From Hyaloscypha bicolor E (taxonomy: Eukaryota > Ascomycota > Leotiomycetes > Helotiales > Hyaloscyphaceae): 64,000 bases of DNA. The stretch is taken from contig NW_020194518.1 of assembly GCF_002865645.1 (NCBI RefSeq), forward strand, positions 62,001-126,000, given 5' to 3'. Of this stretch, positions 20,250-47,002 are shown piece by piece (position 1 is the stretch's first letter; the number at the start of each line of letters is the position of its first letter). The position numbers were made by a program, and so were the translations under genes. The notes under the pieces were generated by a model. The model did not search any database. It was not told the origin of the DNA and worked only from the letters and a program-made list of their open reading frames with translations.

Positions 20250-22041
20250 TCATCTAACGACCTCATCCTGCACGACCTCCACAAGCCCCCCTCTCTCCTT
20301 AAAACTCCTTTTCCCCTCAATATGCCACCACCCCACAACCCCAGCAAAAACTACACCATACACAACACAAACATAGTTCATATTTCCCAGCTTCACCGGC
20401 ATAACAGGAGGAAAGCTGTACATAACAAACGTAAACACCGTCCAACCCAGCAACACCCAATTCGCCACCTTACCAACCCAACCCAACCAAAACGGTCCAT
20501 GCCTAACATTCTCCCTCCCTTTAACCAACAAGCAAAAAATGGGAATGGAATAAGAGACATAAAGCAGCACAATACACGCAGCAGCCATACTATTAAACGC
20601 CGTCACGCTCCCCAGATATAGAAACCCCAGCACAGAGACGATGAGACAAGATACGAGATGGGCGTTAAACGGGACACCCAGTTTATCGTCTACCTGAGAG
20701 AGGAATCCGGAAAACGGGAGGCCATTATCCCTCGCAAAAGACCAGCAAAGTCTCGACTGCCACGTATGAGAAGCAACTAAACAGCCCATCCCCGTCACCA
20801 GAATCAATCCCTCCAAAGCAACAGCCGCGCCTCTACTCCTTACCGCCTGATAAAACAGCTCAAGAATCGGGACTCCGGTCTTAGTATCGAGCAACGCTTG
20901 CAAGTCCTGGATACTGAAGAACATTGCTACACTATATGTCCAAGAGGTTACACAGCCAATGGCGACGGTGCCGAGGATCGCGATCGGGATCATGCGTGAG
21001 GGATTGGCGACTTCTTCCGCGAGGTGCGTGGCGCAGTCTAGACATGCAAAGGCCCAGTTTGTGTTTATGAGGCCAACAATGAATGCAATAGAGGGGGAGG
21101 ACCAGCCGGTGTTGTTTGTGAAGGTTGCGAAGACGAAAGAGGGCGGTTGGTGGGTGGGTGCGACGGAGGGGATGGTGATGAGGATTGTGAGGAATGAGAG
21201 GAGGCTGATGTAGAGGGTTAGGGTGGCGATGGTGGGGAGCAGGCGGCCGTGGGTGTTGAAGAGGAAGGAGAGGGTGTTGATGGCGAGCTAGGTAACGGGG
21301 GAGTCAGCAATTGCTCAACATGGGATTGTTTCAGGAGGGGACATTGTCTTAAGAAAATCTCATGAAACAGTCGCAAATAGGAAAGGGTTTCTCCCCCAAC
21401 ACCTACGTAGGCGAGGAGGATGTGCCAGCGTTGGATTGTCCTGTGCTCTGGTCATTATACGAAGAATAAGCGAGGCAAAAGGGGAAGAGACGAACATTTC
21501 GGGACGAAACAGCTTCACGCAGCCCATTACTGCACTTCCTAGTCCCAACGCCACACTGGCGGAAGTAAAGATACTCCCAGCCCATGCAAACCATCCAGTC
21601 AGATAACTTGCGAACTTCGCAAATTTCGGAGGAGCAAGTTCATATGCCCAGAAATATTGCCCTCCTGCATTCGGCATCGCGCTCGCCAGTTCTGCGAGGG
21701 AGATTCCAACACTGGCAGATATAAGCGTTATTAAGATGATGCCGTAGATGATGAGAACTGGCCCGCCTGAGTTGATGCCTGTTACCAAAGCGGTTGAAAT
21801 TCCGAACCAGGAATTTGTCAGGGAGAAACCGACGCCGAGGACAGACCAGACGGAGAAGTTGCGCTTCATATCTTGGACGTAGCCCATATCTACTTGAAAT
21901 TAGGCACAATTTTCAACATTGGATATTGGTTTGATGGGACAGACCCGCGAGGAGTGCAGCGTCAGAGTCGGGGTTACTGCTCTTCGCATCATTGCTAGGT
22001 GGTCTGTTGACTGCCATTTTGGCCTCGTTGGATGGTGCCAT
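20250..22041 (-). CDS. Amino-acid/GABA/choline-type permease (APC superfamily)
   Basis: Twelve-segment APC-superfamily permease, resembling fungal GABA and choline permeases (Uga4/Hnm1 group). Exons are 22041-21945, 21889-21496, 21440-21407 and 21287-20250, giving 520 residues with every junction in phase. Family motifs are the hydrophilic N-terminus, MKRNFSVWSVLGVGFSLTNS, ISLAELASAMPNAGGQYFWA, LINTNWAFACLDCATHLAEE and the late LLYVSYSIPIFCLLVKGREN. Intron 2 uses a weak GTTCGT donor. Intron 3 (21406-21288) is 119 nt and nearly identical to an intron of the esterase gene at 42 kb; see that repeat entry. Substrate is unknown. It is the only intact gene between the broken glycosidase and the SDR. 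Confidence 0.92.
21288..21406 (-). repeat. Introner-like element copy A (intron 3 of the permease)
   Basis: A spliceosomal intron of 119 nt. It begins GTAGGTGTTGGGGGAGAAAC and ends GACTCCCCCGTTACCTAG. By eye it matches the intron at 42241-42357 at roughly 90 percent over its whole length, while the surrounding exons are unrelated. The GGGGGAG near the donor and CTCCCCC near the acceptor are complementary and would fold the ends together. Confidence 0.88.
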
Positions 22042-22943
22042 TTTTGTTGGATATTGAGAAGTGAACCATAGAGATATTCTCAATGACCTTCTTAGGTACT
22101 GTACGTTCTTCAGATATCTTTGAGATCGCGGGGGAACTAAATGCGGGACGTCCCTCCACGGGAATGACGGAAGGAGAACCAAACTTTGGCACTAATTGAA
22201 TGCAGGCAATTATTCCGAGCAGGAGAAAAGATTGAATCAGATGCTGTAAATATGCTAGGAGAAGGGAAGAATGAGACTTATGGGGGATAATTGAAAATGC
22301 TCATATTATGAAATGCCTGATTCGTTGCAACAATCCGCTTATTGGCAACTCACTTATAGACTTTGATTCCGCGATAAGAATTTCGTCACAGCCAAGAGCA
22401 ACAAGAAAAGATAGCTTTTGTTGTGCAGGCTCAGCCAACGATAAATATCATTAACCACCACCCCTTAGCCTTGGTAGTGGGGGACAAGTCCCTATCAAAA
22501 ACCGTTGCCGAGAGAGCCAAGGGCAGACGGCTTAGGACATTTGAAGTCATTTCGCATCCAAACGACCAGTCACAGCGAAAAGCGAAATTTCTTCTGTGCC
22601 AAGAGACAAAATGGGCTTAAAAAGTTTCTTTCCTCCAAGCACCGATCCCTGTGGAGAAGTGACGTCGGCAGCCAAGCACTTGCTCGGCATTTGAAGGCGA
22701 TTGTAAGTCTTATCTCCCGAGTGGTCCAGTCCAGTGGGGCTAAAAGTCCTTCACTGGGTACACGGCCAGTGGAGAATAGTTCATTGCATTGCAAATCAGA
22801 ACTATCCATGACCTTTCCGAACGCCTTCGCAAAAGGGACATGCCGAAGCTCAAAATCGCGAAGTCGTTCTATGTGCAGAATTAATATCAATGCTAGACCG
22901 CCCAAAAGTCCAATTCATCCACCATTGGAGGATTTTCATTCAT
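22042..22943. other. Intergenic between permease promoter and SDR 3' end
   Basis: No supported gene. Short ORFs at 22423-22975 have no recognisable features. Confidence 0.5.
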
Positions 22944-24275
22944 TTACTCATGCGGGACACCAGTGCCTCGGATAGCATCGACTTGCTCGGAGAGAAGGGC
23001 ATTGTTCTTTGGTGCAGTAAGTGGAATGCCTTCGGGAGTAACATAGGCTTTCGTTAGACCACCATCGACTACGAAATCCTATGCGATTTTAGTCTTCTTT
23101 TCGAGAATTCAAGGGAACCACAAATACGAACCTGGCCGTTGACAAAGCTCGCCTCATCGCTTGCCAAGAACAACACAGCTTGAGCCTGCTCGATAGCCTC
23201 ACCGAATCTACCCGTTGGGAAGTGAATCTCTCGTCGGTGTCTCTTAGGTAGATCGTCACCAAGCCAGTCCTGAAGCAAAGGAGTGTTCAAAGGAGCTGGG
23301 CAGAGAGCGTTGAAGCGGAAGCCTTCTTTAGCATGGACAATGGCAAGTTCTCTGGTCAAGGCTAAAACTGCACCCTTGCTTGCTGTATATGCAAGTTGAG
23401 GAGTAGCGGAGCCGACCAATGCAACAACTGAAGCAGTATTGATGATAGATCCTTTAGTCTTGTTGTGCTTGCGCAGGGCGATAATCGCGTGCTTGCAACC
23501 GAACCACACACCCTTGACGTTGATGGCTTGAGTGAGATCCCAGATCTTCTCAGGGGTATCAAGAGCATCAGCGTCGTCAGCGTGCATGATACCAGCATTG
23601 TTGAACATGATATCAACACCACCCCAGGAATCGAGATGCTCGACTAGAGCTTTGATATCGGCTTCCTTAGAGACATCACAGACCTTTAATTTGTCAGTTG
23701 CACATCGTTATATTCAACGCCAGGATGATTACCTGAATCTCAACCTTGTGGGCAGATGGTACCAACTGTTTAAGTTTGGCAGAAGCTTTCTCGAGAGCTG
23801 GAGCAGAGATGTCTGCCATTAGGACATTGGCACCTTCTTTGGCGAAGAGAATGCATGTTTCGAGGCCGATACCACTTATGTAGAGGTCAGCGAGCTTTCA
23901 TGATATCATCTTGAAGAAAAGGGATCGTCTATGGTGGAAGACAAAGTGTTTCGCAACTGCACTGAACTTTCCAAGTTGTGGAGCCCACTTGTATGGGTAT
24001 ACATTGCGTTGAATAAACGGAGGTGACGCAAAACATATCACGTGTACGGTCGATGACTTGCCAATAGCCCTTCGAGTGGAGATATTCGACACTTGCCAGC
24101 GCGAAAGAGACCAAAGCATGCGGTACTAGCAGGAGCGAAGTGAAGAGAGAACGTACCCAGCAGCTCCAGTGACTATAGCATTTTTGTGGTGGAGTCTTCC
24201 CATGCCAAAGCTGTTGATAGTGTGGACTTTGCCACTGCTATTGCTGCGGGAACTGTTCGCGGTGTCGTCACCCAT
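22944..24275 (-). CDS. Short-chain dehydrogenase/reductase
   Basis: Classical SDR with a Rossmann fold, using NAD(P) to oxidise or reduce an alcohol/ketone. Exons are 24275-24157, 23874-23733, 23683-23132 and 23078-22944, giving 315 residues with all phases consistent. Motifs in order are VTGAAGGIGLET (cofactor loop, split by intron 1), NNAGIM, the catalytic serine region NTASVVALVGS, YTASKGA with the catalytic Tyr and Lys, the LNTPLL segment and a C-terminal DFVVDGGLTKAYVTPEG tail. The first 30 residues form a polar extension before the fold. Intron 1 is long (282 nt) and intron 3 has a GTTCGT donor. The substrate cannot be inferred. Confidence 0.92.
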
Positions 24276-25428
24276 CTTGGATTTGAAAGTTTCTTGTAAT
24301 TCTCAAAGGTGTTCTGAAGTGGAAAATCAGCTCTTGCTTGCTCCAACGCGACTCTCCCGTGATATCATGACCGAACAAAGAAAGAAAGAAAGCTGATCCG
24401 GAATGCTCGCTTATGAGGCCGCTTGTGCCAATGGAGCACCAGGAGTTGAGACGAAACTTACGAAGCTTGCTGGGATGAAAGCGATAAGAAGCGACAATGA
24501 TCATAGAGAGATGGAACGAGGACAGACCGAGCAGAGGAAGGAGAAGAAGAAGGCAAATTACGGCAAAATTGTTGATGACACAGACACCATCTGGTGTGGA
24601 GGAGATGTGTCAGTTGGTCCGAGAACGGTGCTGCTCGTTATCTAAGCTCGCTCCCGAGAGGAAGAGCTCGAGTGCCGGCAGCACCGCTTCCTTCTTGACC
24701 GCTCATGCATCACCGGGCGGCGCAAAAGGGGAGATCACGAGCCATCAGCGAGACTGCTACTGGACAATTCCGTGCTCAGCTTTTGTTGCACTGGTCGGTT
24801 GCTATGTGTCAACATGTGGCACGCAGCGAGTATCAACGGACGACCACGGGCAACGGGTCACGCGTCGGGCTTTGACCAGCCAGGCCTTATCCGAATCCGT
24901 ATCGAAATGCCGAAGATGGGAGGGCATTCACGAGCAGGGCTTTGGGCCACCTGCTGGCGCTGTGCGGCGTTGCATAGAGCTTTGTCACGAGACTGAAGGA
25001 GCTTGACGCTGCACAAATACACCAAGATCTGGAGATTCGGAGTCCTTTGTATTCGTACGACCAAGATCCAGGATGACAAAGGTGCGGCGTGCGGGCTGGG
25101 AATGCTCGTCGCCAATTGGCCTTCCGTCCGTGCTGACCGGGGTAGCTCCAGCCTTCCCAGTACCCTGTTAGCCTCTCTCTCTCTCTCTTATCGTAGCTCG
25201 TCCCCTCGTCGTCCCTCTGTCCTCGATGACATACGACCGGGGACTCGTTGACAGAACAGCTTCGTAAGGGGCACACACGGATTTTCGAGACTCTCTACAG
25301 CTTTCGAGGATCGATTCTTGCCAAATCGACCAACTCTAGGGAGCTGGAAGTTCTTGCCGAGCCTCACCTTCTCGAGTCTCCAAACTGTATCTCCCCCACT
25401 CGCCCGCTCCACCGAGCCGCAGGACATC
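24276..25428. other. Divergent promoter region between SDR and GS-like genes
   Basis: 1.15 kb with no supported gene. It contains an AAAG tetranucleotide run near 24377-24392 and a CT dinucleotide run at 25173-25188 in the GS-like leader. Confidence 0.5.
25173..25188 (+). repeat. (CT)8 microsatellite
   Basis: Eight CT units in the 5' leader/promoter of the glutamine-synthetase-like gene. Pyrimidine tracts are common near fungal transcription starts. Confidence 0.85.
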
Positions 25429-27049
25429 ATGTCAGAGAAGAAGGGGGACGAGGTCACAATCGGGTCCTTGCCCAAGCTTCTCGAAAACGACACCAAGGTC
25501 AAGCTTGCAGGTGTTGATGTCGATGGAATACTGCGAGGGAAGTTGATCTCGAAGAAGAAGTTCCTGGGAATTGCCAAGGAGGGCTTCGGATTCTGCTCGG
25601 TCATCTTCGGATGGGATATGCACGACCAGACCTACTTCAGAGAATTGAAGATCAGCAACGCAGATAATGGATACCACGACCTCATTGCTATTCCAGATCT
25701 CAGCAGCTTCCGGAGGATACCATGGGAAGATGATGTGCCATTCTTCCTAGTCAGCTTCTTTGACCCGGACTCAAGAAAGCCTGTAAGTGCATGCCCGAGA
25801 GGTCTTCTTAAGACTACGGTCGACAAGCTGCACGAGAAGGGTTATGGTGCAATGGCTGGAGGTATGTTCTTCCAAGTGGTCGTGCATATCAAGCCCGGCT
25901 AATACATCCCAGCCGAATACGAATTCTTCCAATTCAAGGCACCACCCGCCGATTCGAATGCACCCCTTTCTGAACGGAACAACTCCTCTACAGTGACATT
26001 CCTTCGAGAGAATCCAGTCAACACCCTCCCTTCCCTGACCGAGGGCATGTTTGGGTACAGTCTGACAAGGCCCGTACATAATCAAGAATACTATTATGGC
26101 ATTTTCGACGCTTGCGAGAAGTTCAATTGTGGAATAGAAGGATGGCATACGGAAAGTGGCCCTGGAGTTTTCGAAGCGGCGTTATCGTTCGGTGAGATCC
26201 AACAAATGGCAGACAAAGCTGGGTTATTCAAGTGAGTAGCACATTGGTAACTTGGAAGGAAGTCTAACAACCCCAGATACGTTGTTAAGTCGGTCGCTAC
26301 TAAATATGGGATCACTCCTTGCTTCATGGCAAAGCCAAGGCAAGGCTTACCAGGAAACAGCGGGCATATGCACATTTCGATCGTCGACAAAAATGGGAAG
26401 AACCTCTTCGCACGGGAAGAGAAAGATACTGAAGCAAAATATAAAGATATCGAGAATCTGTCAGACATGGGGCGATATTTCCTTGCTGGTTTGCTCGAGG
26501 GCCTGCCGGATATCATGCCTATAGTTGCGCCAACAATTAACTCCTACAAACGTTTGGTCGAGAATTTCTGGGCTCCTGTAACTGTATCTTGGGGCCTCGA
26601 GCATCGGGCAGCCTCAATTCGACTAATCGCGCCACCAACCTCGAAACCAGGAGCGACGAGATTCGAAGTTCGCGTTCCAGGCGCTGATGCGAACCCGTTT
26701 TACGTGCTTTCTGCGATATTGGCCCTAGGCTGGAGAGGCGTGGAAAAGAAATTGGAGATCAAGCAGGCGCCCCTTGGGAAGGGCCAGGACGTTGGCGGCA
26801 AGGCGGATCCTGGGGTAAGGCTCGCGAAAAGCTTGAAGGAAGCAACGGAGAGATTTATGAGACCCAAAAGCATAGCAAGGGAGGTTTTTGGGGATGAATT
26901 CGTCGAACATTATGCGGGAACAAGAGAGCATGAGATACGACTCTGGGATGAAGCTGTGACGGATTGGTGAGTTCTTCCAACGGTCTCTTTGAAGCATATT
27001 GTATTAACTCATGAATAGGGAAGTACGAAGATACATAGAGACGGTGTGA
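25429..27049 (+). CDS. Glutamine-synthetase-family gamma-glutamyl ligase
   Basis: ATP-dependent ligase of the prokaryote-like glutamine synthetase family (PuuA/FluG C-terminal type), likely joining glutamate to an amine or ammonia. Exons are 25429-25861, 25913-26231, 26277-26966 and 27019-27049, giving 490 residues. The N-terminal beta-grasp part has VDVDGILRGKLISKKKFLG. The barrel shows EGWHTESGPGVFEAAL, MAKPRQGLPGNSGHMHIS (substrate/ATP site), INSYKRL, WGLEHRAASIRL and FEVRVPGADANPFYVLSAI. The start was chosen at 25429, where homology-like sequence begins. An in-frame ATG at 25318 would add 37 residues of no clear character. It is distinct from the main eukaryotic glutamine synthetase, so the substrate is open. 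Confidence 0.93.
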
Positions 27050-28275
27050 TGCAATTACCTCCTGCATTTTAGCGTCGCGCTTCTTTAGAAACTATACCGT
27101 TTATGCATTGCCGGTACGTACTATATACAGCAATTTGCTGGAGATTTGCTGTAGTGAGGAGCTCGTGCTCGAGCTCGCCACCAAAGCAAGCTCCATAAAC
27201 TTACTCCGCGTGAACATTTCAAATCATGAAAGTCACCTCTGGCGAGTCCCGAAGCTTTCACAATTGACAAGACACGAAAAAGGCTGCCAAGTTGCCAGCA
27301 AATACACACATATAGAACTAACGCAATGTAAATCATTGGAAACTTCATTCCCACGAGTCCCATGACAAAACACTCGGGCTCGGCAACAAAAAGCACCATT
27401 CATCAGTAAGAATCTAGAGCACGCCTCATCCCAGCCTTCGGATCCTCCCCACTCCGAAAGAGGCGCCCGCCGATCCTCTTCATTCTCACAGCCACCAGCC
27501 TACTAAGGCGAACTATCAGGAAGCTTAAAGTTAAGCTTAGCGATGTGGAACCAGAATGGGAACAAACGCTTCCGTGACGAGGGGCTTCGTGTTGTGCGCC
27601 TGGCACTAATTGGCTGCTTGGACTCTTCAATTTCTCGCTTGGGAGTTTTTGTGTTTCTTTTGTATATTTTTGTCTCTCCCCCGACGTCATGAAGACGGGA
27701 GAGCCGGGTACTCGAAAGCTAAGGGAGGCGGGCACTCTTCAAATGTAGATGCCTACCCTGCGATGATGCTTCAAGTCTCTGAAGGGAACGTAAGCTGAGA
27801 AGCTCCAGCATATGCAGGGTAGCCCCTTCTCCGCATGACTTTGCCCCAATCCATCCAAAATATGTACTTCTTCCTCGAATCATGAAGCTAGCCTGAATTC
27901 GGGGACATGGAAATTGGAATAGATTCTCCAGCTTCCCTGACTTCCCGGGCTGCGCATCTTTGCACGGGACTACGAGCTTCCAGGCCAAGGGGCTAATGTC
28001 TCTCGATAGTGCTGAATGGCAACATGCCAGGCACATTGTGAATGACCAGGCCTGAACGGCGTCTTAGTCCTCTTCGGAAAAGTCTCTGCGGTTTCTATAT
28101 TGCGGTTCACGACGGCGTGGGTAATCCCCCGCTCTTCTAAGTGTCATTCATCTCTTCTAGCATTTGCTATATTAGAGCTGCTCCCGTTGTCCCCTTCCTG
28201 TTTTCCGTCTCGACATCCTCATTCTCTACCCACACTCCGCAACACAACAACACTATCTTTATATACTTCCTCAAA
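27050..28275. other. Gene-free interval, 1.2 kb
   Basis: Contains the promoter of the ferritin-like gene. No coding pattern or repeat recognised. Confidence 0.5.
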
Positions 28276-29317
28276 ATGCGTTACTCATCCCTTCTCCCCG
28301 TGCTTGCAGCTGGCCTCACTGCCGCCGCTCCAGTCGAGCAGCGTGATGTTGCCATAGACTTCAACCCTCCAGGGGGCGATGTTACCATCCTCAACTATGC
28401 TCTTACGCTCGAGTATCTCGAGCGAAATTTTTATCAAGAAGGTCTGGCCAACTATACTCAAGCCGACTTTGTCGCTGCTGGGTTTCCGGATCCCTTCTAT
28501 GCCAACTTGTGTGAGATCTACTATGACGAGAAGGTTAGTCTTCTGTGAAATTTTGGGTTGGGATTGTGCTGGTGCTAATGGAGCATAGACTCACGTCTCG
28601 TTCCTCGCTGGTGCTCTTGGCACCGCTGCTGTCCATGAAGCTACATACTCTTTCCCCTCAACCACCCCTGCTTCGTTCGTTGCTCTCTCCTCCGTCCTCG
28701 AGGGGGTGGGTGTTTCTGCCTACCTTGGTGCTGCTGCTGCAATTGTCGACAAGAGTTACCTTACAGTCGCCGGCTCCATCCTGACCGTCGAGTCCCGCCA
28801 CTCCTCCTACATCCGCGCCGCCCTCAAGGAGTCTCCCTTCCCCAAGCCATTCGACACCCCCCTCGACTTCAACGACGTCTACTCCCTCGCCGCACAATTC
28901 ATCACTGGCTTCGCCCCCGGCGATCCCGCCCTTCCATTCAAGGCCTTCCCAGCCCTCACCCTCCAACCATCGCAATACCCATACACCGCCGGCTCCAGCC
29001 CTGTAACCTTCACCCACGCATACAAGAACGCCCTTGCCGCGAACCTGATCTCTGGCGACGAGCCAGTGTATGCTGTCTTCTTCTCTGGTCTTGACACCTA
29101 CTATGTCAAGACATACGTCACCAAAGGAAACAGCGGCGACTTGAAGGTTACGAGCCTTCCCGGCGCGACTGCAACGATGCTGGCGCCTACTGGACAGGTG
29201 TATGTCGTGCTCAGCACGGCGGATGGTGTGAGCAGCAAGGTTTCGGATGAGAATACCATCTCAGGTGTTGGTGTTCTCGAGGTTAACCCTGTTGGACAGA
29301 GGACTGGTGTCTTTTAA
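28276..29317 (+). CDS. Secreted ferritin-like domain protein (Rds1/desiccation type)
   Basis: Member of the fungal ferritin-like family related to Rds1 and plant desiccation protein PCC13-62. Exons are 28276-28533 and 28589-29317, giving 328 residues. The signal peptide [20 protein letters not shown] is followed by a Kex2-like Gln-Arg. The helical domain begins at [20 protein letters not shown], in which Glu residues could bind metal as in ferritins, and continues through [10 protein letters not shown] and [16 protein letters not shown]. The C-terminal quarter is a beta-rich extension. Related proteins are stress- or stationary-phase-induced in fungi; no enzyme activity is established for the group. 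Confidence 0.9.
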
Positions 29318-29719
29318 AAGAGACTGTGATGAGTGGTGCAAAGTGAAAAAGAAATAGGAAATAATGTACAGTACTCGGATGAAATGAAATGGGATAGTAA
29401 TGATAATTTGTCACCATGACTTATCTTGCCCTTCCTCATCTGTGACGTGTTTGGTGACTTTCTATTCGTTGAATGAATAACTTCATGTTGAAAGATTGTC
29501 ATCGTAGTTGGAGGAATGGAAAAATATAGAGGTTTTCACACTTCACGTGCACTGAAGCTCACGTCAAAGAACGCATTGTCCAGCACTGGCTGAGATATCC
29601 CCTATTTTTGTCACTGCTTGCAAGAAGTCGCGAGGATAAGAAATTCAGATGAAACCCAAAAGGCCATCGCAAAATTAAAAGATATCCTTGCTAAACACCT
29701 ACCTGCTGTCCAAACCTAC
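29318..29719. other. Convergent 3' regions
   Basis: 402 bp between the converging ferritin-like and RidA-like genes. Nothing recognised. Confidence 0.5.
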
Positions 29720-30305
29720 CTAAACCATCGCAATAACATCCAACGCAATCCTCGAACTATACTCCAGCTTCGAGACCTCCACCACAGTCCTCGCCGGCTT
29801 ACTCTCAAAATACGCCTTGTAAACCATCTCAAAGATATCTCGATATCCACTCGGCAGATCAGCCAAAATATACACCGTGACCTTCACAACTTGCTGGAAC
29901 GAACTTCCTCCCGCAACCAGAATGGCAGAGATATCATGCATGCACTGCTCAATGGCATCAACAGGCTGCATGATGCGTATCACGCCTCCATCGCGCCGTT
30001 GGTCGCGTGACATCTGCCCGGAGATGAAGAGCAGGGAGGGTGTGCGGATTGCTTGGGACTGAGGGGTGTTAGATAGAACTGGCTAAATGAAGCAGGAAAG
30101 AGCGTGCGTGGAATGCCGTTGCTGGGATATTGTTAGTTGGTTGGTGAGGGGCGACGTCTGAGGGAGGAGACGAACGTGCTGGTGCTCGGGGAGCTTTCAC
30201 TTCGGTGATGCCTTCGGGGCGGGCGAGCTCGGGCTCGGGGATCGCGCTTGAGGCGCCATCTTCGAGATCTTGCGGTAGTAGGGGAGTTTGTTCGATGGTC
30301 GTCAT
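29720..30305 (-). CDS. RidA/YjgF-family protein with 14-nt microexon
   Basis: RidA-type enamine/imine deaminase fold. Exon 1 30305-30176, intron 1 (54 nt, GT-AG), exon 2 30121-30108 (14 nt), intron 2 (49 nt, GC-AG), exon 3 30058-29720, giving 160 residues. The microexon is needed: skipping it breaks the frame, while including it yields APAPTAFHSQAIRTPSLLF, equivalent to the APAPAGPYSQA motif of RidA. Later motifs are FISGQMSRD, VDAIEQCMHD, VVKVTVYILAD and RTVVEVSKLEYSSRIALDVIA. The arginine of the RTVVEV segment is the substrate-binding residue of the family. The N-terminal 40 residues are an extension. The HSQ instead of YSQ change and the GC donor could also be early decay. Confidence 0.78.
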
Positions 30306-30897
30306 TGTGGTGAAGGCTCAGAGCGAGCGCGGATATTTGGGATGAAGCTGTTCTTAGCAAGTGGAGGGTGGACAGGATCGAAAAGGGAACCGTGCCATTC
30401 TGCAGGCCCACCCCCACACTATTTGCTTTTTCTCCGCCTTCAGAGCTTCTGCTCTGGTGAACTTTCCAGGCAGGTGGCCTGTTGTTCGTAGTTTGAACTA
30501 CTAGCGGAATTTCGAGGTATCTGGAAGCTCAAAACGCTGCGGAGAGCATCAGAAAAATAACAACCAGCTCCGTCCACAGCTTCTGGCCGAGGAGCAATGA
30601 TCGATTGGACTCGAAAAGCCGGCAAACGGCGCGATGCCCCTCAACAGAAGTTGCATTCAGGCCAATGAGCGCTGAATTCGACCTCGGGGCCGCAAAATCC
30701 GGGGAGGGGCAGGAGCCTCGGCCTGTTGGGATGCCGACGGTGAGAACAATGTGGGGGAATTGCTTCCTTGCAATCTCAACTTTGACCTTCTGGTGAGGCC
30801 AAGTGTCATTCATAGTCTTTCTTTTGTTGCCAGGAAGGACTGGGACAATTGGCAGTTCGTTTGGCCAATTGAAAAGAGGGGAGAAACGTCTCCTGAG
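30306..30897. other. Divergent promoter region, RidA-like / fatty-acid transporter
   Basis: About 590 bp with no supported gene. Confidence 0.5.
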
Positions 30898-33086: not shown

Positions 33087-33278
33087 AGATCTCGAATCAG
33101 AAATATACAATGATATGGCACATAAACCAAGTCTATACACAAGATATCTCATTCCATACACCAGAATGCTACCCAGGTTTTCCCAAACTCCAGATCCAAA
33201 CGCCAGATCAACAGACCATTACAGCCTGCTAAAGGAGAGCACAGGATATATAACCAGAAATTATCCAGTCTAACCACG

Positions 33279-35318
33279 CTACCGATAATTTCCTAACTCA
33301 TAATGTGGCCCCGAATTCATATTTGCACTCAGCCCAGCGACCTCAACAGGATGTTGATTCGACCCCTGAACCTCATATCTCGGCGCAGCATCCGCCAATT
33401 CGTGAGCATGCGGATGCCCGGAAACCTCGTACCTCGCATGCTCAGGATGCAATTCATGCATATACGGCTGGCCATGAGCTACAGCTGTATTGTGTGCATC
33501 CATTTCCGTCGTCCCCAGTAAGACCGCACTTTGCGCCTCCATCTCCAACTGGCCAGCCAATGCAGGACGTTCCTTCTCATCCAAGGGCGAAACAGGACTC
33601 ACTACACCCATACCCGGCGAGGGCTTTCTCACCACACTCAGATTCTTGCTCAGATTGTTCGCCGTATAAGTACTCGTGCCCGCCAACTCCGCTTTATCGA
33701 ATTCATTGTTATTGTTCGCGTTGGCGTTGTATTGGGGGGCAGGAAGTGGAGGTTGCTTGGGTACCCTCCTGCGACGATAACGCCAGCCCACAACGAGTAT
33801 GAAGATCACAATTATCACAAGCCCAACAGCGCCGCCTATTATGGCGGCCATGGGAATGTGCTTGGGCTTCGGGAGGTATGGGTCAGTGAGTCCGCCGGTA
33901 TTGGTTGGGAAGATGCCGGACAATCCTGTGTAGCTTCCGCCGTAGAGGTTTGTTGTCACTGTGTTGGTTCCTTATTAGTCATATTCCCTAGCAAGTGGGA
34001 AGGATGGGAAACAGCGGATTTCATCATACCTGATGCCGTGATTCCTTTGGGGGTGACCAGCCCTTTCCCTGCACTGCAGTAGTATTCAAAGACTCCCAAG
34101 GCGCTGGACACGGCTTCACTGGCAGTTGTACCACACTCCACCTTGGCCTCTGCAACGAATTAGCAACAAGTTTCTTTGGAGGGAAGAGAGCCGGGAGAGA
34201 GCCGGGAGCATGTCTTATGCTTCCGACCAGTGAAATAAGGAGCTCGGAATATGGAACAAAGAAATAGGTTGTTTACCGCTGATGATTGCACTCGTTAATG
34301 CTTGGGAGTTCTGGTCTTTGATACAGGCGCAAGAAACAAATCCTAATGGAGCAGAAGGGCAATCGCCAAGGGAATCTCCGAGTGACATGACTGGATATGA
34401 TATTGCGAATTGGGCACATGTTGCGAGTGAAGAGTATTGAGGAAGGTCGGTGATGTAGTATGTCACGTCTCCGGGGAGGTATGACGGACTAGGGAAAGCA
34501 GTTGTTCCTGCTTCCATCCCACAGTAGCCTGCGAAAACTGCTTGAGCCGAGGTGGTGTCCGCTGTATGCGTTGTGCCGCAATAATGACCAATATAAGTAT
34601 TAATTTGTTCGCTGATGAAAAGGGCATTTTGGTCTTTGTTGCAAGCACAACTTGCCTGTTGGTGTTAATTTGGAGTTGAGGAATTGGGCCTGGGACATGG
34701 CCCGACGGAAGTGCTTACAAGAAAAGAAGCCGCAGGTGGGCAATTAGTATCGGTCAGAGATTGGACAGCATAGGATAACGCTGATTGAGCACATCCTCCC
34801 AATTCTGAATACGCCGGAAGATCAGTGATATACTGTGTAACTGGACCTCCTGTTGGAACCGCAGCTGGAGTTGCCTGATTGCAATATGCATCGAAGACTT
34901 TATCTGCACTGGTCACGTCCTCCGCGGCCGTACTCCCACAATAATGAAGGACATATGTAGATATGCTGCCAATGACAGCTGCGGAGTTCTGATCTTGCGT
35001 GCAGGCGCACGACTCTAGAGCCGTGACTGAGGGCGCACATGATTTCTGTGTGAGGCCTTGAACGACGGCAGATACAGCGGACCCTGCGCAAGGTGCTATT
35101 TTCAAGTCAGGATGGTAGTTCTTCAAAATGACAGACGGCCGGGAAAATGAATCAAAATATATGGGTACAAGGAACGCCGTTTTGAGCCAGAGTATTCAGT
35201 GAAAGTACTGACCAAGGGCAGAGAAGACTGCGAGATCAGTGATATATACTGTTGCAGAGGAGGTAACCACAACGAACACAGCAAGCTGGAGAAAAGACTG
35301 GAAGAAGAGGTGCCTCAT
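33279..35318 (-). CDS. Single-pass cell-surface protein with three six-cysteine (CFEM-like) repeats
   Basis: I do not recognise a named family. Exons are 35318-35213, 35095-34719, 34655-34277, 34149-34030 and 33958-33279, giving 553 residues with all phases consistent. A signal peptide is followed by three tandem repeats of about 90 residues, each starting YITDLxxYS(x)L and carrying six cysteines in the order C..C..CAC..C..C (for example ESCACTQDQNS, ASCACNKDQNA, VSCACIKDQNS). They resemble CFEM-type domains but lack two of the eight cysteines. A Gly/Ser/Thr segment, one strong membrane helix (AAIIGGAVGLVIIVIFILVV) and a basic stop-transfer RYRRRR follow. The tail is about 170 residues, His/Pro/Ala-rich, with repeated ARYEVSGHPHAHEL / PRYEVQGSNQHPVE units. 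The layout suggests a surface sensor or adhesion protein; that is inference. Confidence 0.85.
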
Positions 35319-36974
35319 GGTGGCTGGAGGTCGCTATCAAACCGGCAAAATTGATGAAGTAGAAAAAGAAGAGATGAATGACGAACAGTGACCACCGCGC
35401 CGCCGAATATTCGGAACCTGGGCTGCAGCCACTTGACTGCCTCCCGTTGACTGTGGCTGGCTTCTGAAGTCGGTGGGAGATGCCTTACCCCTGTCCGGCA
35501 TGACTTGATACGAAAGAGCTCCAAAAGGAGAAACCCCGCGCTGAACTCCATCCCTCCATTCACGGCCCTGTCACGGCGCCACAGCGAGCTTGAAACGTCT
35601 GAGGAGATTTGGAAAAACAAAAGGGGTGTGCCAAGATCTCAGTGTCCTGGGACATTTCTGTAGCCTTGCAGATATTTATTTATTCTTAGTAACTTTTCAC
35701 GCAGCCCCCAACAGTCACCACCAATGGCAAGCCCAAGAAATTATTTTGTGTAACATAAAGATGGGCAACATTAAGCAAAGCTAAGAACAGGGCTTAGCGT
35801 CAAATTTCATTCACGTCATTCGCTGAGATGATCCCTCTTCGTTCCATTTTTTTCATGGAGACGGGATAACTTCCAATCTGCTTACTGAAGCAGAGTCTGG
35901 CTAAAGGACAAGCTAACAGAGCCTCTGCGACGTAGTCGCAGAGGGACTAATGTTCATTTTAGCGTGTCTTGGCGACATAGGGGGTTTCCGGCCAATAGCT
36001 AAGCGTAGAAACCCCCAAACCACCGTAACCACCGCATTTAGAATAGACCGGGGAGTGTTTGGTGATCAGGTATCTAGGGAGGCTAGGTAGCGCTTACAAA
36101 ATACAAATACACAAAGTTATCCTCCTAATATAAGTTTATACAGAGTTATACCAAGCTAAAGTGCACTAGTAAAGGCAGCTCGACGCCTCCGCTTGACAAA
36201 TGTTGGCGTCGCCTATTTGGGTACGGGGAGGCATAGTTACTACTATGCCTGGTGGTTCAGCCGGTGTTAATTTGGATGTCGGTCCCTGCGACTACCTACC
36301 AGATTGGGATAACTTCGTGGGTGAACTTTCATATTTACTTCTTGAGTCTGGAGTGTGGACGCTGGTCCTGGCTCGAAAACTTACAGAAAAGCGTTTACTG
36401 GCATTCTGAGGCCGAGGAGTAGCTGAACTTCACGATCATATTTCGGATCATCGTTTGTCCATTCCGCCCAATTCGACCTCCAAGTCGCTCCAAAAGGTGC
36501 TCTCCAGACTGGGACCTGCCCTCTCCAATGCGCCTCTGTCCCGAGTCAAATGATCTCAAGTGAGTAACCAGAGATGTAACGATCTCGAAAAGGCGCTTCC
36601 AGCTCGAGTCTACCTCAGGAGGAGGGATTGTGAGGTTCTACCTCTGAATCAGTTCGAATGACAATAATAGATGTACCAAATAACACTACACCCAATACAC
36701 GACTCGCTCCAGGAGAATTTTGAATCAGGATCTGGGGACATAGCCGACTTGAGCACTTCCAATTGTCAATAGCGTATACTTCTACATGGTCATTGAGCCT
36801 CGAAGGTTGTCTGCAGAGATTATGATACACAGGGATTTTGAGTCCCAGTTAGGTCAGAATCAGGCCTTACCACGAGAGACCCCTTCACCAGACTGAATGT
36901 CAAACATGAGGCTGTTCCCCAGCCTTGAATCTTCCGGGCGCCAGCACATGCCTTGTTCCGACCAAGAACGAAGA
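35319..36974. other. Gene-free interval with inverted repeats, 1.65 kb
   Basis: Promoter of the repeat protein and 3' region of YIF1. Two inverted repeats lie at 35922-36016 (separate entry). The short ORF at 36200-36409 has no recognisable features. Confidence 0.5.
35922..36016. repeat. Two adjacent hairpin-forming inverted repeats
   Basis: CCTCTGCGAC-GTA-GTCGCAGAGG (35922-35944) is a perfect 10-bp stem with a 3-base loop. GGGGGTTTC (35980-35988) is complementary to GAAACCCCC (36008-36016). Nothing around them matches a complete mobile element, though a solo LTR or MITE remnant is possible. Confidence 0.7.
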
Positions 36975-38051
36975 TTAAATCCGTGTGAGAATCCACATGA
37001 ATAAGAGCTGTAGAGGGTACGAGTATAAGAAGAGAAATTGGGTCCTTCGGCTCTTTTGTGACCGTGCTACTGTTTGCATTGTCCCTCTCTCGTCGTTCGA
37101 GTTTTCCGGAAGTAGGACATATTTTAAAGAACGTAACTAGTGTCGAGTTAGGACTCGTCCAACAAACAATGCTCAGCACGTGCTTACCAAAAACAGAGCG
37201 TTGGCCAAGAAGGTGTAGGAGAAAATTGTCCATCCAATCCACCCGCCTGTACCTTTTCCTCCATTCGAAATCTCGCTGACAAGTATCGTTGCAATTACTC
37301 CAACGAATTTGTAGCCAGAATAGGCAACAAGATCAAGCAACTGGGAATCATTCGAAATAGACAATAAGTAGCACCCGAACTTCAAAAGTAGAATCTCGAT
37401 GCCGACAACGAAAAATGCGTATGTGGCGGTGTATCCAAGCAACTCTGGGTTGAATGCTCCTTGTAAACCTGCCATCATTGTGGAAAGGAGGATGTAGGTG
37501 ACGAGAGCCATCAATGGGATGTACATATCCGGACTGTTGAGGTCGTCTCTTGGCGGTAGAAACCATCCTTCCTGACCACTTGGACCAATAGTCTGCTTGC
37601 GGGACCAGGGCTTGTGTCTCCAAGGGAATAGGACCAGGAAGAGCTTGTTGACCACATATGAATTCGAGACATTGAAATAGTGTTTGAGGGCGGAGAAATT
37701 AACGTATCGGTTGAACTAGACTTATCATCAGCATCATCTTCATTACACAGCTCCCTCTCTACTGACATTTTGTTCCACGTATTCTGTGCCATGTTTTAAA
37801 GCTGTTTGCCCAACCTGGAATCCCATCTGCGCCGTAGGGTCTGCCATAAAACCTCCATATGCGCCGAATGCGCTGCCTCCTCCCTGAGGGCCTTGCTGCT
37901 GGTAGGGGTTTCCATAGCCTGACGTTTGATGTTGCGGCGCTGGTGGAGGAGGTGATCTAAGTTGAGGAACAGTAGAAACATGCTGAGGTACAGGGTGGTG
38001 AAGCGGTGGAGATGTCGCCGGTGCAGGGTGCCCATAATTTGTTCGCTGCAT
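36975..38051 (-). CDS. YIF1: YIF1, ER-Golgi transport membrane protein
   Basis: Yip1-interacting factor, a multi-span protein of ER-to-Golgi COPII vesicles that works with Yip1 and Rab GTPases. Exons are 38051-37767, 37715-37188 and 37136-36975, giving 324 residues. The N-terminal 70 residues are Pro/Gln/Gly-rich. Family motifs are FMADPTAQMGFQVGQTALKHG, ALKHYFNVSNSYVVNKLFLVLFPW (spans a splice), LNSPDMYIPLMALVTYILL, QLLDLVAYSGYKFVGVI and the end LRSLKYVLLPENSNDERG / RRTQFLFLYSYPLQLLFMW. Both introns are 51 nt and end in TAG. It is arranged head to head with the SRP receptor gene, with 282 bp between start codons. Confidence 0.95.
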
Positions 38052-38333
38052 CTTTGCAAATTATCGATAGTGGACACAGCAAAGATGCTGGCAGAGGGGT
38101 GCGGACTAAGTACCGAGGACGGGAAGAGAGATCTGGCTAGTTCAAAGAGACGCGCTTTTGTCGCGAACACCATGAATGTGTCCAGTTCTTGAAGGTTATG
38201 GCTCGCGAGGTCCTAAAATGCTGACTAATTTTTCGATAAGAAACCCTGGCTGGCTTCTTATCAGATGAAGGCAAACATTTCAAGCCCTCAAGAGTGACAC
38301 CTCTTCCAAAATATTGCGCATTAAGTTCTCGAA

Positions 38334-40586
38334 ATGCTCGACTCTTTTGAGATTCTCACCACTTCTGGTGTTGTGCTGTGGTCCAGATCATATGCGCCAA
38401 CAAGCCCGTCTATCATCAATAGTCTCATTACGAATGTCTTTATTGAAGAACGAACGCTTCCAGGAGCTGGGATAGCCGATGACATCTCTGCAGCAAACAA
38501 TCCTCCTTACAAGCACGACCAGCATACATTGAAATGGACAACTGTGAAGGAGCTGGGTTTAATATTTGTGGTAGGTTGTGACAATCCAACCTCGAGCTCT
38601 CCTCCACCAGTATCCTTACCTAACTGAAGGTAGGCTGTTTACCGGTCACTTCTACACCTATCCTGGATTGACAAACTTGTCGACAATATCAAGACGCTAT
38701 TTATTGACCTATATGGAGACCAATTGAAGAAGCCACATACTACATTGGTTGAATGCCACTTTGACGAATATTTTGATCAACAGATACGTGAACTCGAGAA
38801 GACAGCACTGAATCAGGACACAAGAGTCGCTGAATCTGCTGCTCTGGTGGAAGAATCTCCTCCTTCAATCTCACAAAGCTTCGGGGATGAGCGTCCTCCT
38901 TTGCCTGGAATTCTATCAAGAGGTTCGCGGCTGATTTGACGACTTAGTACAGAACTGACTTGGTACAGGACAATCAAAGAACACCTTCAAGGACCTAACA
39001 TCAAACGAGTCAACGCCTATTGCTACACCAGATACGTCTCGTCCAAGCACACCCGCAGGTCATATCCTCACCGGAAAGGCTGGACCTGGAGGAAAAGGTT
39101 CGCGAAGAGCTCGCAAGGCCGCTAATGCGCCCTCGGCCCACGCATCATCAGGCGAAGAGTCGTACGCGAAGAAGAATAGAGCAGGAAAGGCTGCTGCGCC
39201 AAAGAAGGGCAGAAAATGGGATGCCGAGGGGTTAGCAGACGAGGACAGTGGCACCCCGCTAGATTATTCTGCACCAGCAAATGGTGCCACATCCGGAGAC
39301 GAGGAAGTAAAGGATCGGTCGGGAGCTGTTGAAGAAGTCGATTCGAAGTCATGGGGCTCTAAAACCGGTGGGCGGTTTGTTCTTAAGGATCTAGACGACC
39401 AAGTCCAGTCTATCTTAGCCTCTGCAGATGCGAAGAAGTCAGACACGGCAGCAGCACCAAGTGGTATAGTGGGCTCTAGCTTGAGTGCGATTGGTGGACT
39501 TTTCAGGAATGTTGTGGGAGGAAAGACTTTGACGAAAGAAGATTTGGACAAGGCTATGAAGGGTATGGAAGATCATCTTCTGCGAAAAAACGTTGCTCGT
39601 GAAGCTGCTATCCGATTGTGCGAGGGAGTGGAAAGGGAGCTCATTGGAGTGAAGACGGGGAATTTTGAGAGTAAGTGTCTCTGGAACTCTTCGTGGGGTC
39701 AATACTAACTTTCAAACAGGCGTCCAAGCCAAAATTCAGACCGCAATGGAATCTTCGTTGCAGAAGATACTAACACCTACCTCTTCGCTCGACCTTCTTC
39801 GAGAAATTGATGCTGTCACCTCCCCGTCTGCAGTTTCGCTGCAAAAACCAAGACCATATGTCATCTCAATTGTCGGGGTGAACGGAGTCGGCAAATCTAC
39901 GAACCTGTCAAAGATCTGTTTCTTCCTTCTGCAAAACAAATACAAAGTCTTGATTGTTGCTGGGGATACGTTCAGATCAGGCGCAGTTGAGCAACTAGCT
40001 GTACACGTTTGTAACCTGAAAGATCTCACCGCTAGAGAAGGAGGAGGAGTCGAACTATACGAAAAGGGGTATGGAAAGGATGCAGCCAATGTTGCAAAGG
40101 ATGCCATAGCTGTGGCAGCACAGAAGGGATACGACGTCGTCTTGATCGATACTGCCGGCCGACGACATAATGACCAGGTAATTTTGTATGAGCCTTATTT
40201 GACCCATTTCACTGACCATATTAGCGTCTCATGTCTTCCCTTGAGAAGTTCGCCAAATTTGCCAATCCAGACAAGATTCTTATGGTTGGAGAAGTAAGTG
40301 CTGTTATTAGTAAATCATCCTTCCCTGCTAATGTCCATAGGCTTTGGTAGGAACAGACTCCGTTGCTCAAGCAAGAAATTTCAATGCAGCATTTGGAAGT
40401 GGTCGATCACTTGATGGATTCATTATCTCAAAATGTGATACCGTTGGAGATATGGTTGGCACTTTGGTCAGCATGGTCCACGCAACGAATGTGCCAGTCC
40501 TCTTCGTTGGTGTTGGCCAACATTACACGGACTTGAGAAACTTGTCTGTGAAATGGGCAGTCGAGAAGTTATTAAGTAGTAACTAG
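38334..40586 (+). CDS. SRP101: Signal recognition particle receptor, alpha subunit
   Basis: SR-alpha docks SRP-ribosome complexes at the ER by a GTPase twin reaction with SRP54. Exons are 38334-38570, 38634-38922, 38969-39670, 39720-40177, 40225-40293 and 40341-40586, giving 666 residues. The N-terminal SRX (longin-like) domain begins MLDSFEILTTSGVVLWSRSY and binds SR-beta. A charged Lys/Arg/Ser linker follows, then the N domain from about residue 330. The G domain has GVNGVGKSTNLSKICFFLL (G1), AGDTFRSGAVEQL, DTAGRRHNDQ (G3), SKCDTVGD (G4) and FVGVGQHYTDLRNL (closing motif). The DKILMVGEALVGTDSVAQ segment spans the last intron. Confidence 0.96.
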
Positions 40587-41344
40587 TAAGATTCATCTAC
40601 TGCGATGTATTGCACTTAATGGTGATCTAGAATCTTTTAAGGACGGCTTTGACCTCGGCCGAGTGACTCTGCATTGTGAGATAGTTAAGATTTGGGGCAG
40701 GTGAGGTGGTAAAACGAGGGCCAGATCGAATTCAGATTATCGCTCGCAGAGGGTGCCGGCTATTTCTCATCTGGGTGAAAGTCTCTGTTACAACACCGCT
40801 CGATGGATCAGCCTCCTCCCGGCTAAATGCAGGTCAGGTCGCTAGGGGATGTCCTATATATTTCCTTTACTTAATCCTCTTCTTTTAAGCCCCAATTTGT
40901 CCTTTTAAGTACCGGAAATTCTGAAACCGCTCGATCAGTATTGAAAGACATACGCTACGAAATTGATGAGGCTTGTAAAAACTTGGTTGTGTGCTAGTGC
41001 TTCCGGGTAAGCCTCTGAAGGGGCGGATTATTTTTAAGTATGTATATTCTAAAAGTTAAAGCGCTGCCTGGATGGAAATATGCTTCACAGTTGTTCTTTT
41101 TTGGCTCTTGCAATTTTCCACGAGCTCGCCTGACAACCTGATGCATCTTTCATCCACGCAATGTCTAGAATGAAATCAAATAGTAGATTGTCTGATATTC
41201 TTGACGGAGTGCTGATAGCTTTTTTAGACTACACACCTCAGTGTTCTCATAACCAATGTATCAAGTCGTAACAAAGGAAAGACCTCGTTTCCAACCTCTA
41301 GAGAGCAGCCGCCTCCAAATCCGGGTCCATCCTCGAACTTCAAA
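40587..41344. other. Intergenic, 758 bp
   Basis: Nothing recognised apart from the esterase promoter. Confidence 0.5.
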
Positions 41345-42626
41345 ATGGACCCCAACCTCATCCTCAAAAAAGCACCACCTCTGCACCAAGCCTGGCTCGC
41401 TCACGAAGAAGCCTTCAATCTCCTCGCCGCCAAACCCGTCATCACAGACCCGAATGTCAGTCAGAAACTCTACAGCGAGACCTGCAAAGCAGTTAATGCA
41501 GAACTGCTCGCCGACAGAGACAAATATCTAACCGAGCACATCGCCACTTTGGAGATGAAATTGGAACCCAATCCAGGCTCAGCTAATGCTCATTCCATTC
41601 CTATCAGAAAATACTTCCCCATTTCATCCAGTCCCGTGACGAAGAACATTGTCGTCTATTTCCACGGTGGAGGACTTTACGTCGGCGATCTAGACAGTGA
41701 AGACTTGACATGTCGTCGAATATGTAAAGCTCTTAATTGCACGGTGTACTCGTCTAGCTACCGCAAGATGCCGCAGTTCACAGCTGATGACGCACTCTCT
41801 GATGCTCTGTGCACTTTTAAAGAGGTCGCCAGTCACAAGAAAGAGGGTAAACTTGTAGTGATAGGGAGCTCGTCTGGTGGACGTAAGTGTTGAGAAGAAA
41901 TTCTCTTAATATTTCTTGCTGTCTCCTGCTTTTCTCCCGAGACAAACTATACCGACCAATTACTGACTTTTCCCTTACGCAGAACTTGCGGGCCAAATTT
42001 CACAGCATTATCGAACTCTTAAGAGCGATTTGATCGATGGGGTGTTGTTGAGAGGGCCAGTAACCTGTAATTCCACGGAAGGTGGCAAGTATTTACCTGA
42101 TCGATTCAAAGATGTGCATACCTCAATGTCGAAAGCGTTTCATACCTCGTTGTTGAGCGGTGCTGCACTGAACAATGAGAACCGGACAACGACAGTGCTG
42201 CCATTGGAAGCGGATGATTTGAGCGGGATGCCGAGACATTGTAAGTGTTGGGGGAGAAACCTTTCCTATTTGCGACTGTTCCACGAGATTTTCTTAAGTC
42301 AATGTCCTCTCCCAAAACAATCCCAATTAAGCAATTACTGACTCCCCCGTTACCTAGGGATCCAGGTCTCAACAAATGATATTTATTACTCTGATGGCGT
42401 TTGCTATGCAGAGGCGTTGAGAGAGGCAGGTGTTGAGGTTAACTTGGATGTTGTGGAGGGATGGCCGCATACATTTTGGTTGAAGGCTCCATATTTGGAG
42501 AGAGCGGTGCAAGCGGAGAGTGATATGATTGAGGGATTGCGGCAGTTGTTGGAATGTGACGTTCAGAAGGTGAAGGTAGTACAGGCGGAGGAGAAGCTTA
42601 TGTCTGTCCTGAGCGACAGACTGTGA
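41345..42626 (+). CDS. Alpha/beta hydrolase, hormone-sensitive-lipase-type esterase
   Basis: Carboxylesterase of the HSL (type IV) family. Exons are 41345-41882, 41983-42240 and 42358-42626, giving 354 residues. The oxyanion-hole motif VVYFHGGGLYVGD and the nucleophile elbow IGSSSGGQ (usually GDSAGG, here GSSSGG) are present. The acid/base part appears as STNDIYYSDGVCYAEALREA and EGWPHTFW, giving a plausible Ser-Asp-His triad. Both introns belong to the introner-like group described separately; the second (42241-42357) is nearly identical to an intron of the permease gene at 21 kb. Removing both introns is required for an open frame, which confirms they are spliced. Substrate is unknown. Confidence 0.92.
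41883..41982 (+). repeat. Diverged introner-like element copy C (esterase intron 1)
   Basis: A 100-nt intron starting GTAAGTGTTGAGAAGAAA and ending CAATTACTGACTTTTCCCTTACGCAG-like. Its first 18 and last 25 or so bases resemble copies A and B, while the middle has diverged. GTAAG at the donor is complementary to CTTAC next to the acceptor. Confidence 0.6.
42241..42357 (+). repeat. Introner-like element copy B (esterase intron 2)
   Basis: A 117-nt intron starting GTAAGTGTTGGGGGAGAAAC and ending ACTCCCCCGTTACCTAG. It differs from copy A (21406-21288) at only about a dozen positions by eye. The insertion phase differs too: phase 1 here, phase 0 in the permease. Confidence 0.88.
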
Positions 42627-46520: not shown

Positions 46521-47002
46521 ATGTCGGATTTTTGGAAGCTAATTGTGAGTATGCCCAGCTCCTCTTTTCCATCCCGAAGATCCCTCCCTACTCCTAATGA
46601 TGATATAATTTGCGATCGACCTAGCATGGTGGCACTCTCGCCGGAGTCGCTATATCGTGCTCGTGGATGACATTCAATCTTACATATTCTGAACATTTCC
46701 TCCCAAAGAAGCTTCTATCACCGCAGCATCTTCGAGTAATTCCGGCTGACCTCTTTAAGCAATGGTCTAGGGCTCGCAGAACCTCCGCATCTACCTATCT
46801 TCACGAATCTGTCTTCCATTCTTTCGAAACCGACGTTGCTATACCAACCTCACTGATACTAAAGATAGAATCCTGTATAGGGTGTCATTTGTGGATAAAT
46901 GGTAAGCAACCTCATATTTCTTCTTTCAGCTCTATGCTGCCACAATTCCCTGCTATGATTACAACAAACGCACTGAAAATAGTGAACTTTTTGAAGTCAT
47001 GA
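46521..47002 (+). CDS. Possible small two-exon gene of unknown function
   Basis: I do not recognise this protein. ATG at 46521 begins MSDFWKLI and is followed at once by a consensus GTGAGT donor. An 80-nt intron with TCCTAATGAT branch and CGACCTAG acceptor (46545-46624) leads to an open exon to 47002, giving 133 residues. The product has one hydrophobic stretch (GTLAGVAISCSWMTFNLTY), suggesting a small membrane protein, and otherwise has no motifs. It could instead be chance, because the C-terminal third looks unconstrained. Confidence 0.3.

Follow-up and report, generated by a model that had tools for sequence, protein, structure and literature searches.

Near-identical introns in two unrelated genes of Hyaloscypha bicolor E point to an introner-like element family whose subfamilies seem to differ in junction preference

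The spread of spliceosomal introns is a long-standing question, and two genes of the ascomycete Hyaloscypha bicolor E raise it in a concrete form. In a stretch of 64,000 nucleotides of contig NW_020194518.1 (positions 62,001 to 126,000, hereafter called the window), an amino acid permease gene and an unrelated alpha/beta hydrolase (esterase) gene each contain an intron that closely resembles the other, and an original prediction, made from the letters alone, had proposed these introns as candidate introner-like elements. How did two such genes come to carry the same intron, and what determines where it lands? The analysis described here supports the view that both introns belong to a single introner-like element family, of the internally symmetrical kind found in fungi.

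The permease intron (21406-21288, minus strand) and the esterase intron (42241-42357, plus strand) align with 89.9% identity over 119 columns, including 10 mismatches and 2 gap openings, in agreement with the match of about 90%, from boundary to boundary, that had been estimated by eye. The global alignment score of the pair is 186, compared to a mean of -14.6 (standard deviation 9.2, maximum 22) for 1000 mononucleotide shuffles, and the alignment breaks down outside GT and AG. The near-identical pair is confirmed as real, with exact coordinates. Without the intron segment, the reading frame is continuous in the esterase (...MPRH-W-IQVS) as well as in the permease (...WHILLAY-LAINTL); if kept, the segment introduces an in-frame stop in the esterase. 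Once spliced, the esterase is recognised as Abhydrolase_3 (E 2.5e-37) and the permease as AA_permease_2 (E 1.7e-40). From frame, splice signals and homologous proteins we infer that both introns are spliced. The insertion phases differ, as predicted, being by eye 1 in the esterase (CAT T|GG, with the bar marking the insertion point) and 0 in the permease (TAC|CTC).

Genome-wide, the family is present at at least 75 distinct places in 82.04 Mb (76 contigs). Two BLAST queries and two pattern scans were merged into 74 places and a third BLAST query added C69:396801; all place counts are lower bounds, the best 40 scored matches being taken per BLAST query, and control patterns (the patterns read backwards) gave 0 matches in the genome. 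With the esterase intron as query, the best 40 of 54 candidates, the query included, showed 80-100% identity over the full or nearly the full length, and the outcome that would have spoken against the original prediction, few or no other copies, did not occur. From the matches of the 3' scan (48), the 5' scan (45) and those common to both (23), the number of recognisable copies is roughly estimated at 94. Of the first 74 places, 65 yielded sequence. These copies are single units of 110-133 nucleotides that keep donor, branch box and acceptor: 61 start with GT, all 65 end with YAG (TAG or CAG), and 62 possess a CTRAY branch box close to the 3' end, in 55 copies at the same distance as in the esterase copy. 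The highest identity between two copies, 98.3%, is found in unrelated genes. Among the four copies that do not start with GT, L020 starts with GC, and L037 (C1:2242544), L042 (C58:392240) and L058 (C52:376690) have kept the 3' part and are altered at the 5' side; by eye, L037 and L058 look like introns of about 84 and 71 nucleotides, as if shrinking to ordinary size.

That ordinary introns lack such likeness had also been predicted, and the 12 other predicted introns of the window, among which the first intron of the esterase, indeed matched only themselves in the genome search, although absence of a match is no proof of rarity. This first esterase intron (41883-41982), a single copy, measures 100 nucleotides, whereas predicted ordinary introns have a median length of 63, and aligns in register with the 3' half of the element (69.6% over 46 nucleotides, E about 0.01); it is perhaps a decayed member of the family.

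The original prediction had favoured intron copying over segmental duplication on the ground that the match stops exactly at the splice sites, and the 65 copies bear this out: mean pairwise identity of the flanks is about 0.25 per position, which is chance level, with exceptions at positions -1 (0.42), -2 (0.30) and +1 (0.29). Duplication of segments or genes, or a conserved RNA gene residing within old introns, might at first account for the copies, since some hosts are paralogous (an all-against-all blastp of the 65 host pieces yielded 10 similar pairs and one same-gene pair), but the chance-level flanks exclude duplication for most copies, copies at homologous sites are 77-95% identical beside exons that are 32-61% identical, and no Rfam family was found at these introns at the gathering threshold. 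We consider this explanation highly improbable. Segmental duplication as such was ruled out by the flank identity, and an element lodged within an older intron by the coincidence of element ends and splice sites. A known RNA family was likewise rejected, as the only Rfam match of the window (RF01515, the Aspergillus fumigatus small nucleolar RNA Afu_514, E 6.2e-07) lies elsewhere, at 46593-46694 on the plus strand.

The hosts identified comprise, next to the esterase and the permease, an Hsp70/SSB protein, a phosphoketolase, a PEBP protein, a Tle1-like domain protein, a methyltransferase and two MFS transporters. Using up to 250 nucleotides of flank per side, the spliced sense frame equalled or exceeded the antisense frame in openness in 51 of the 65 copies, with antisense favoured in the other 14 (Wilcoxon p 2e-7), the best frames of left and right flank agreed in 42 (21.7 expected), and retention of the intron would break the automatically chosen frame in all 65. 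A codon-usage model favoured sense in 53 copies, namely in 29 of the 30 places on which it was trained, which had been picked for their open sense frames, and in 24 of the 35 others. The copies thus appear to be sense and coding where this can be judged, a claim that does not extend to every copy; the permease copy, one of the 12 to which codon usage assigned no sense orientation, was verified by protein homology. With regard to copies outside introns, which would have counted against the original prediction, none was demonstrated, and this part of it stands for the places that codon usage could assign and less firmly for the other 12. Since the automated phase call was wrong for at least the permease (1 instead of the 0 seen by eye), no claim on phase is derived from automated calls.

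Insertion appears seamless. In the three hosts that were compared with intronless relatives of solved structure in the Protein Data Bank (PDB), the junctions KTKK-D-MS (Hsp70), GHGAPAILAS-LWLEG (phosphoketolase) and MPRH-W-IQV (esterase) neither gain nor lose a residue relative to the protein that runs through the site. Distant paralogues in the same genome likewise cross the insertion points without interruption, at C46:1727908 (33% identity) and C62:1468967 (28%) for the permease and at C4:1045228 (29%) for the esterase. The intron-lacking homologues compared are distant paralogues and PDB relatives; together with the 75 places, they uphold the identification as introner-like elements. No offset gave consistent direct repeats between the flanks, and hence no consistent target-site duplication was found. 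A single copy, L020 (C5:268971, with GC for GT), has the hexamer GCCGGT on both sides, which resembles a short duplication.

Some copies occupy homologous sites in paralogous genes. One set of homologous transporter genes carries L004, L010 and L018: L018 has a match to MFS_1, L010 shares 50% identity with L018 over 94 residues, and L004 was aligned by eye. Here the elements are 91-95% identical and the neighbouring exons 32-61%; by eye, L004 and L018 are at the same codon position and L010 is one nucleotide away. In another gene family, a common site after VDQLW is occupied by L005, L021 and L023, whose elements are 77-91% identical. As the elements are less diverged than the exons, these cases indicate repeated insertion and are probably parallel gains, gene conversion being the formal alternative. 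L005, L053 (C24), L003, L023 (C73) and L021 (C23) include two places where two copies lie within about 1 kb of each other, apparently in one gene, and the hosts of L005, L003, L023 and L021 are homologous, as of a gene family that collects these introns.

The elements resemble their own reverse complement, with a median z of 3.5 and z above 2 in 51 of 61 copies, compared to 0.14 and 1 of 35 for ordinary predicted introns, and this symmetry drops with divergence from the consensus (r 0.69). The permease copy matches its reverse complement at 64.5% over 124 columns and thus forms an imperfect inverted repeat. In the predicted fold the terminal Gs remain outside the near-terminal stem, unpaired and near each other; folding z is -3 or lower in four of six members and weak in the esterase copy (-1.18) and in L011 (-1.65). 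At two positions of the stem the pair is G-U, each time in 51 of 57 copies, so that pairing of the repeat is better in sense RNA than in DNA. Another pair is broken (A-C) in 14 of 58 copies, including the highly similar group with a CAG acceptor, and would therefore not be needed for spread. As most stem positions hardly vary, covariation lends weak support.

These properties are consistent with a mobile spliceosomal intron of about 118 nucleotides that would carry its own donor GTAGGT, branch box CTGAC and acceptor YAG, and of which the near-terminal inverted repeat, as sense RNA, may bring both ends together. New copies would enter coding exons exactly from GT to AG, leaving the exon bases unchanged and without target-site duplication, and are predicted to be removed from the mRNA as introns. 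Excised intron RNA would then be reinserted by an RNA-dependent path, for example by reverse splicing into a transcript or into transcribed single-stranded DNA, with reverse transcription or repair as the next step. The exact GT-AG units, their sense orientation where judged, the lack of a consistent duplication and of any demonstrated non-genic copy favour such a route, and we think it probable, judging from sequence evidence, that one introner-like family spreads in this way.

The bases at the insertion points complicate this picture. In the 61 copies that start with GT, the junction is T|G in 23 and C|A in 12; together these account for 35 of 61, compared to 14.1% of flank dinucleotides (p 4e-15) and to 6 of 35 ordinary predicted introns (Fisher p 1e-4), and for 35 of 57 when four paralogues at homologous sites are left out. 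The bias is found in 27 of 37 copies with less than 90% identity to the consensus and in 8 of 24 closer ones. Exons classically end in AG; here, AG directly precedes the intron in 2 of 61 copies, and a pyrimidine occupies position -1 in 54 of 61, while ordinary predicted introns have one in 17 of 35. Extended by one base, T|GG was seen 16 times with 1.3 expected and CC|A 8 times with 1.1 expected (uncorrected for 112-2304 tests). Watson-Crick pairing between -1 and +1 is rarer than expected (6 versus 19.2). Matching or guide-like pairing between an element and its own target showed no excess over shuffled pairs, a test in which two end-microhomology means had no shuffle control. Further out, Watson-Crick pairing is in excess at -6/+6 (27 versus 14.9, p 0.0005) and at -5/+5 (22 versus 15.5, p 0.036), for which we have no explanation.

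T|GG and CC|A can be read as one double-stranded site, which raises the possibility of integration into DNA. An enzyme could insert a short, non-autonomous element with terminal inverted repeats there without duplication; the element's terminal splice sites would render it harmless, and selection would retain only the sense copies in genes. Such DNA transposition would fit the excess of both trinucleotides, the imperfect terminal inverted repeat and a preference that changes between subfamilies (see below), as from an evolving enzyme. However, there is no consistent target-site duplication, no copy was demonstrated outside genes in a search of the whole genome, the two G-U stem pairs make pairing of the repeat as sense RNA better than its pairing as DNA, and T|G and C|A mostly occur in different subfamilies, so that one enzyme reading both strands is not needed. 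We regard DNA transposition as rather unlikely.

The relation between junction and subfamily was derived from a FastTree tree of 58 copies (4 odd copies were dropped and 3 were unaligned), on which the number of changes required by parsimony at each flanking base was set against 2000 shuffles of the labels. Position -1 (p 0.0005) and position +1 (0 of 2000 shuffles) follow the tree, and nothing fell below 0.05 at -2 to -6, at +2 to +6, at twelve distant control positions or for automated phase. An IQ-TREE tree of 54 copies, without the four homologous-site paralogues, gave p 0.0025 at -1 and p 0.0005 at +1, positions 2 and 3 being null. A linear Mantel test of flank versus element identity was null at -1 and +1, with its lowest p (0.042) at -9; the tree tests are preferred, a choice made after both outcomes were known, because old, divergent copies dominate the Mantel test. 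A mutual-information test of groups versus bases was discounted, the groups having been cut after the tip labels were seen.

In total, 50 of the 58 tree copies were placed in groups. The junction is T|G in 7 of 7 copies of subfamily B, which contains the esterase copy, in 5 of 6 of the CAG-acceptor group and in 4 of 7 of group D, and C|A in 6 of 8 copies of a C|A group and in 3 of 4 of group E; in subfamily A, which contains the permease copy, +1 is a pyrimidine in 15 of 16, and the pair L024/L025 shows neither T|G nor C|A. Bootstrap support for the groups is modest (B 67, CAG 76, C|A 20, E 78). Given that a single base on each side follows the element phylogeny, the subfamilies seem to differ in junction preference.

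The same bases would be expected to follow the tree if intron DNA were copied by template switching or gene conversion through short flank homology, which the homologous-site copies in paralogues would also suit. Against this, bases 2 and beyond show no agreement with the tree. Near-identical copies of subfamily A differ in their flanks, including the junction bases, which argues against a simple transfer of flanks along with the intron. The exons next to homologous-site copies have diverged strongly, and no excess of element-target matching was found; we judge such copying improbable.

As a tentative reading, each subfamily may have its own junction (T|G for B and the CAG group, C|A for another, pyrimidine|pyrimidine for the young subfamily A) and choose only the bases that it touches. 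In that case the target would be chosen by the intron itself or by an evolving partner enzyme, rather than by the shared spliceosome alone, and DNA-level integration may occur. Several points weigh against spread by an RNA route: a preference specific to subfamilies is hard to explain by a shared spliceosome alone, a target at the level of RNA only would not predict two junctions that are reverse complements, one site on two strands, an imperfect terminal repeat is what is expected of a DNA element, and 12 of 65 copies are not assigned to sense by codon usage. The two-strand site and the subfamily differences favour either DNA-level integration or an evolving specificity. The features of both window copies and their host genes are listed in Table 1.

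Table 1. Positions in the window of the two introner-like element copies, their signals and their host genes
Feature	Position	Strand	Remarks
Introner-like element copy 1, 119 nucleotides	21288..21406	-	Amino acid permease intron, phase 0, junction C|C, subfamily A
Introner-like element copy 2, 117 nucleotides	42241..42357	+	Esterase second intron, phase 1, junction T|G, subfamily B
Branch box CTGAC, copy 1	21303..21307	-	Position by eye
Branch box CTGAC, copy 2	42338..42342	+	Branch A 16 nucleotides before last intron base
Near-terminal inverted repeat 5' arm, copy 1	21391..21405	-	3' arm 21289-21303; z -3.72
Near-terminal inverted repeat 5' arm, copy 2	42242..42256	+	3' arm 42342-42356; stem weak, z -1.18
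Host gene 1, alpha/beta hydrolase (esterase)	41345..42626	+	Exons 41345-41882, 41983-42240, 42358-42626
Host gene 2, amino acid permease, partial (5' end outside model)	20253..21899	-	Post-element exon 21287-20253

As a separate observation on the assembly, the 5.8S ribosomal RNA and the start motif of the internal transcribed spacer were not found in its 82 Mb, and ribosomal DNA seems to be missing from it or to have escaped detection.

This kind of element is already known; the comparisons that follow refer to the passages of the papers cited here. Introner-like elements of Dothideomycetes, reported as having hundreds of copies (Collemare 2015, PMC4457414; van der Burgt 2012 as cited in PMC8469720), share with the present family near-identical introns in unrelated genes, subfamilies, decay, predicted secondary structure and parallel gains, the latter reported in PMC4457414; at least 75 copies were found here and about 94 are estimated, and whereas the insertion preference cited for the elements of Capnodiales is AG/GY, a pyrimidine precedes the intron here, with T|G or C|A. 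The sister stwintrons and cropped introns of Hypoxylaceae (Fekete 2021, PMC8469720) are likewise symmetrical, seamless, free of duplications, functional on the coding strand only and subject to decay of symmetry, and their 93-nucleotide cropped sister introns are the closest form. Those sister introns derive from nested introns and have no insertion bias, in contrast to the single introns and marked bias found here, and stwintron nesting (an internal intron interrupting an outer splice element) was not seen in the copies by eye, no separate scan having been made. In stwintrons of Xylariales (Fekete 2025, PMC12403724), a near-terminal RNA stem also draws the terminal Gs together, with elements of 10 nucleotides instead of the arms of about 15 with G-U pairs in the single intron described here. 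Introners across eukaryotes (Gozashti 2022, PMC9860276) show similarity up to the splice boundaries and copies in genes as well; the ascomycete families described there have neither terminal repeats nor duplications, while the present one combines an imperfect inverted repeat and a junction preference with the absence of duplication. Compared to DNA-transposon introners, a consistent target-site duplication is absent, with L020 as the single exception, and terminal inverted repeats are present, in an imperfect form. Seamless insertion and the absence of transposon hallmarks have been taken as arguments for a reverse-splicing origin of fungal introners (PMC8469720, PMC9860276). The present family was not found in the open literature searched and may already be catalogued, and a subfamily-specific junction preference is not reported in the passages cited from PMC4457414, PMC8469720 and PMC9860276.

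Repeated gains at homologous codons of paralogues imply that a shared intron position need not mean shared ancestry. Moreover, if the subfamilies differ in junction preference as they seem to, this difference would offer a direct handle on whether the preference follows the element, the strand or an enzyme.

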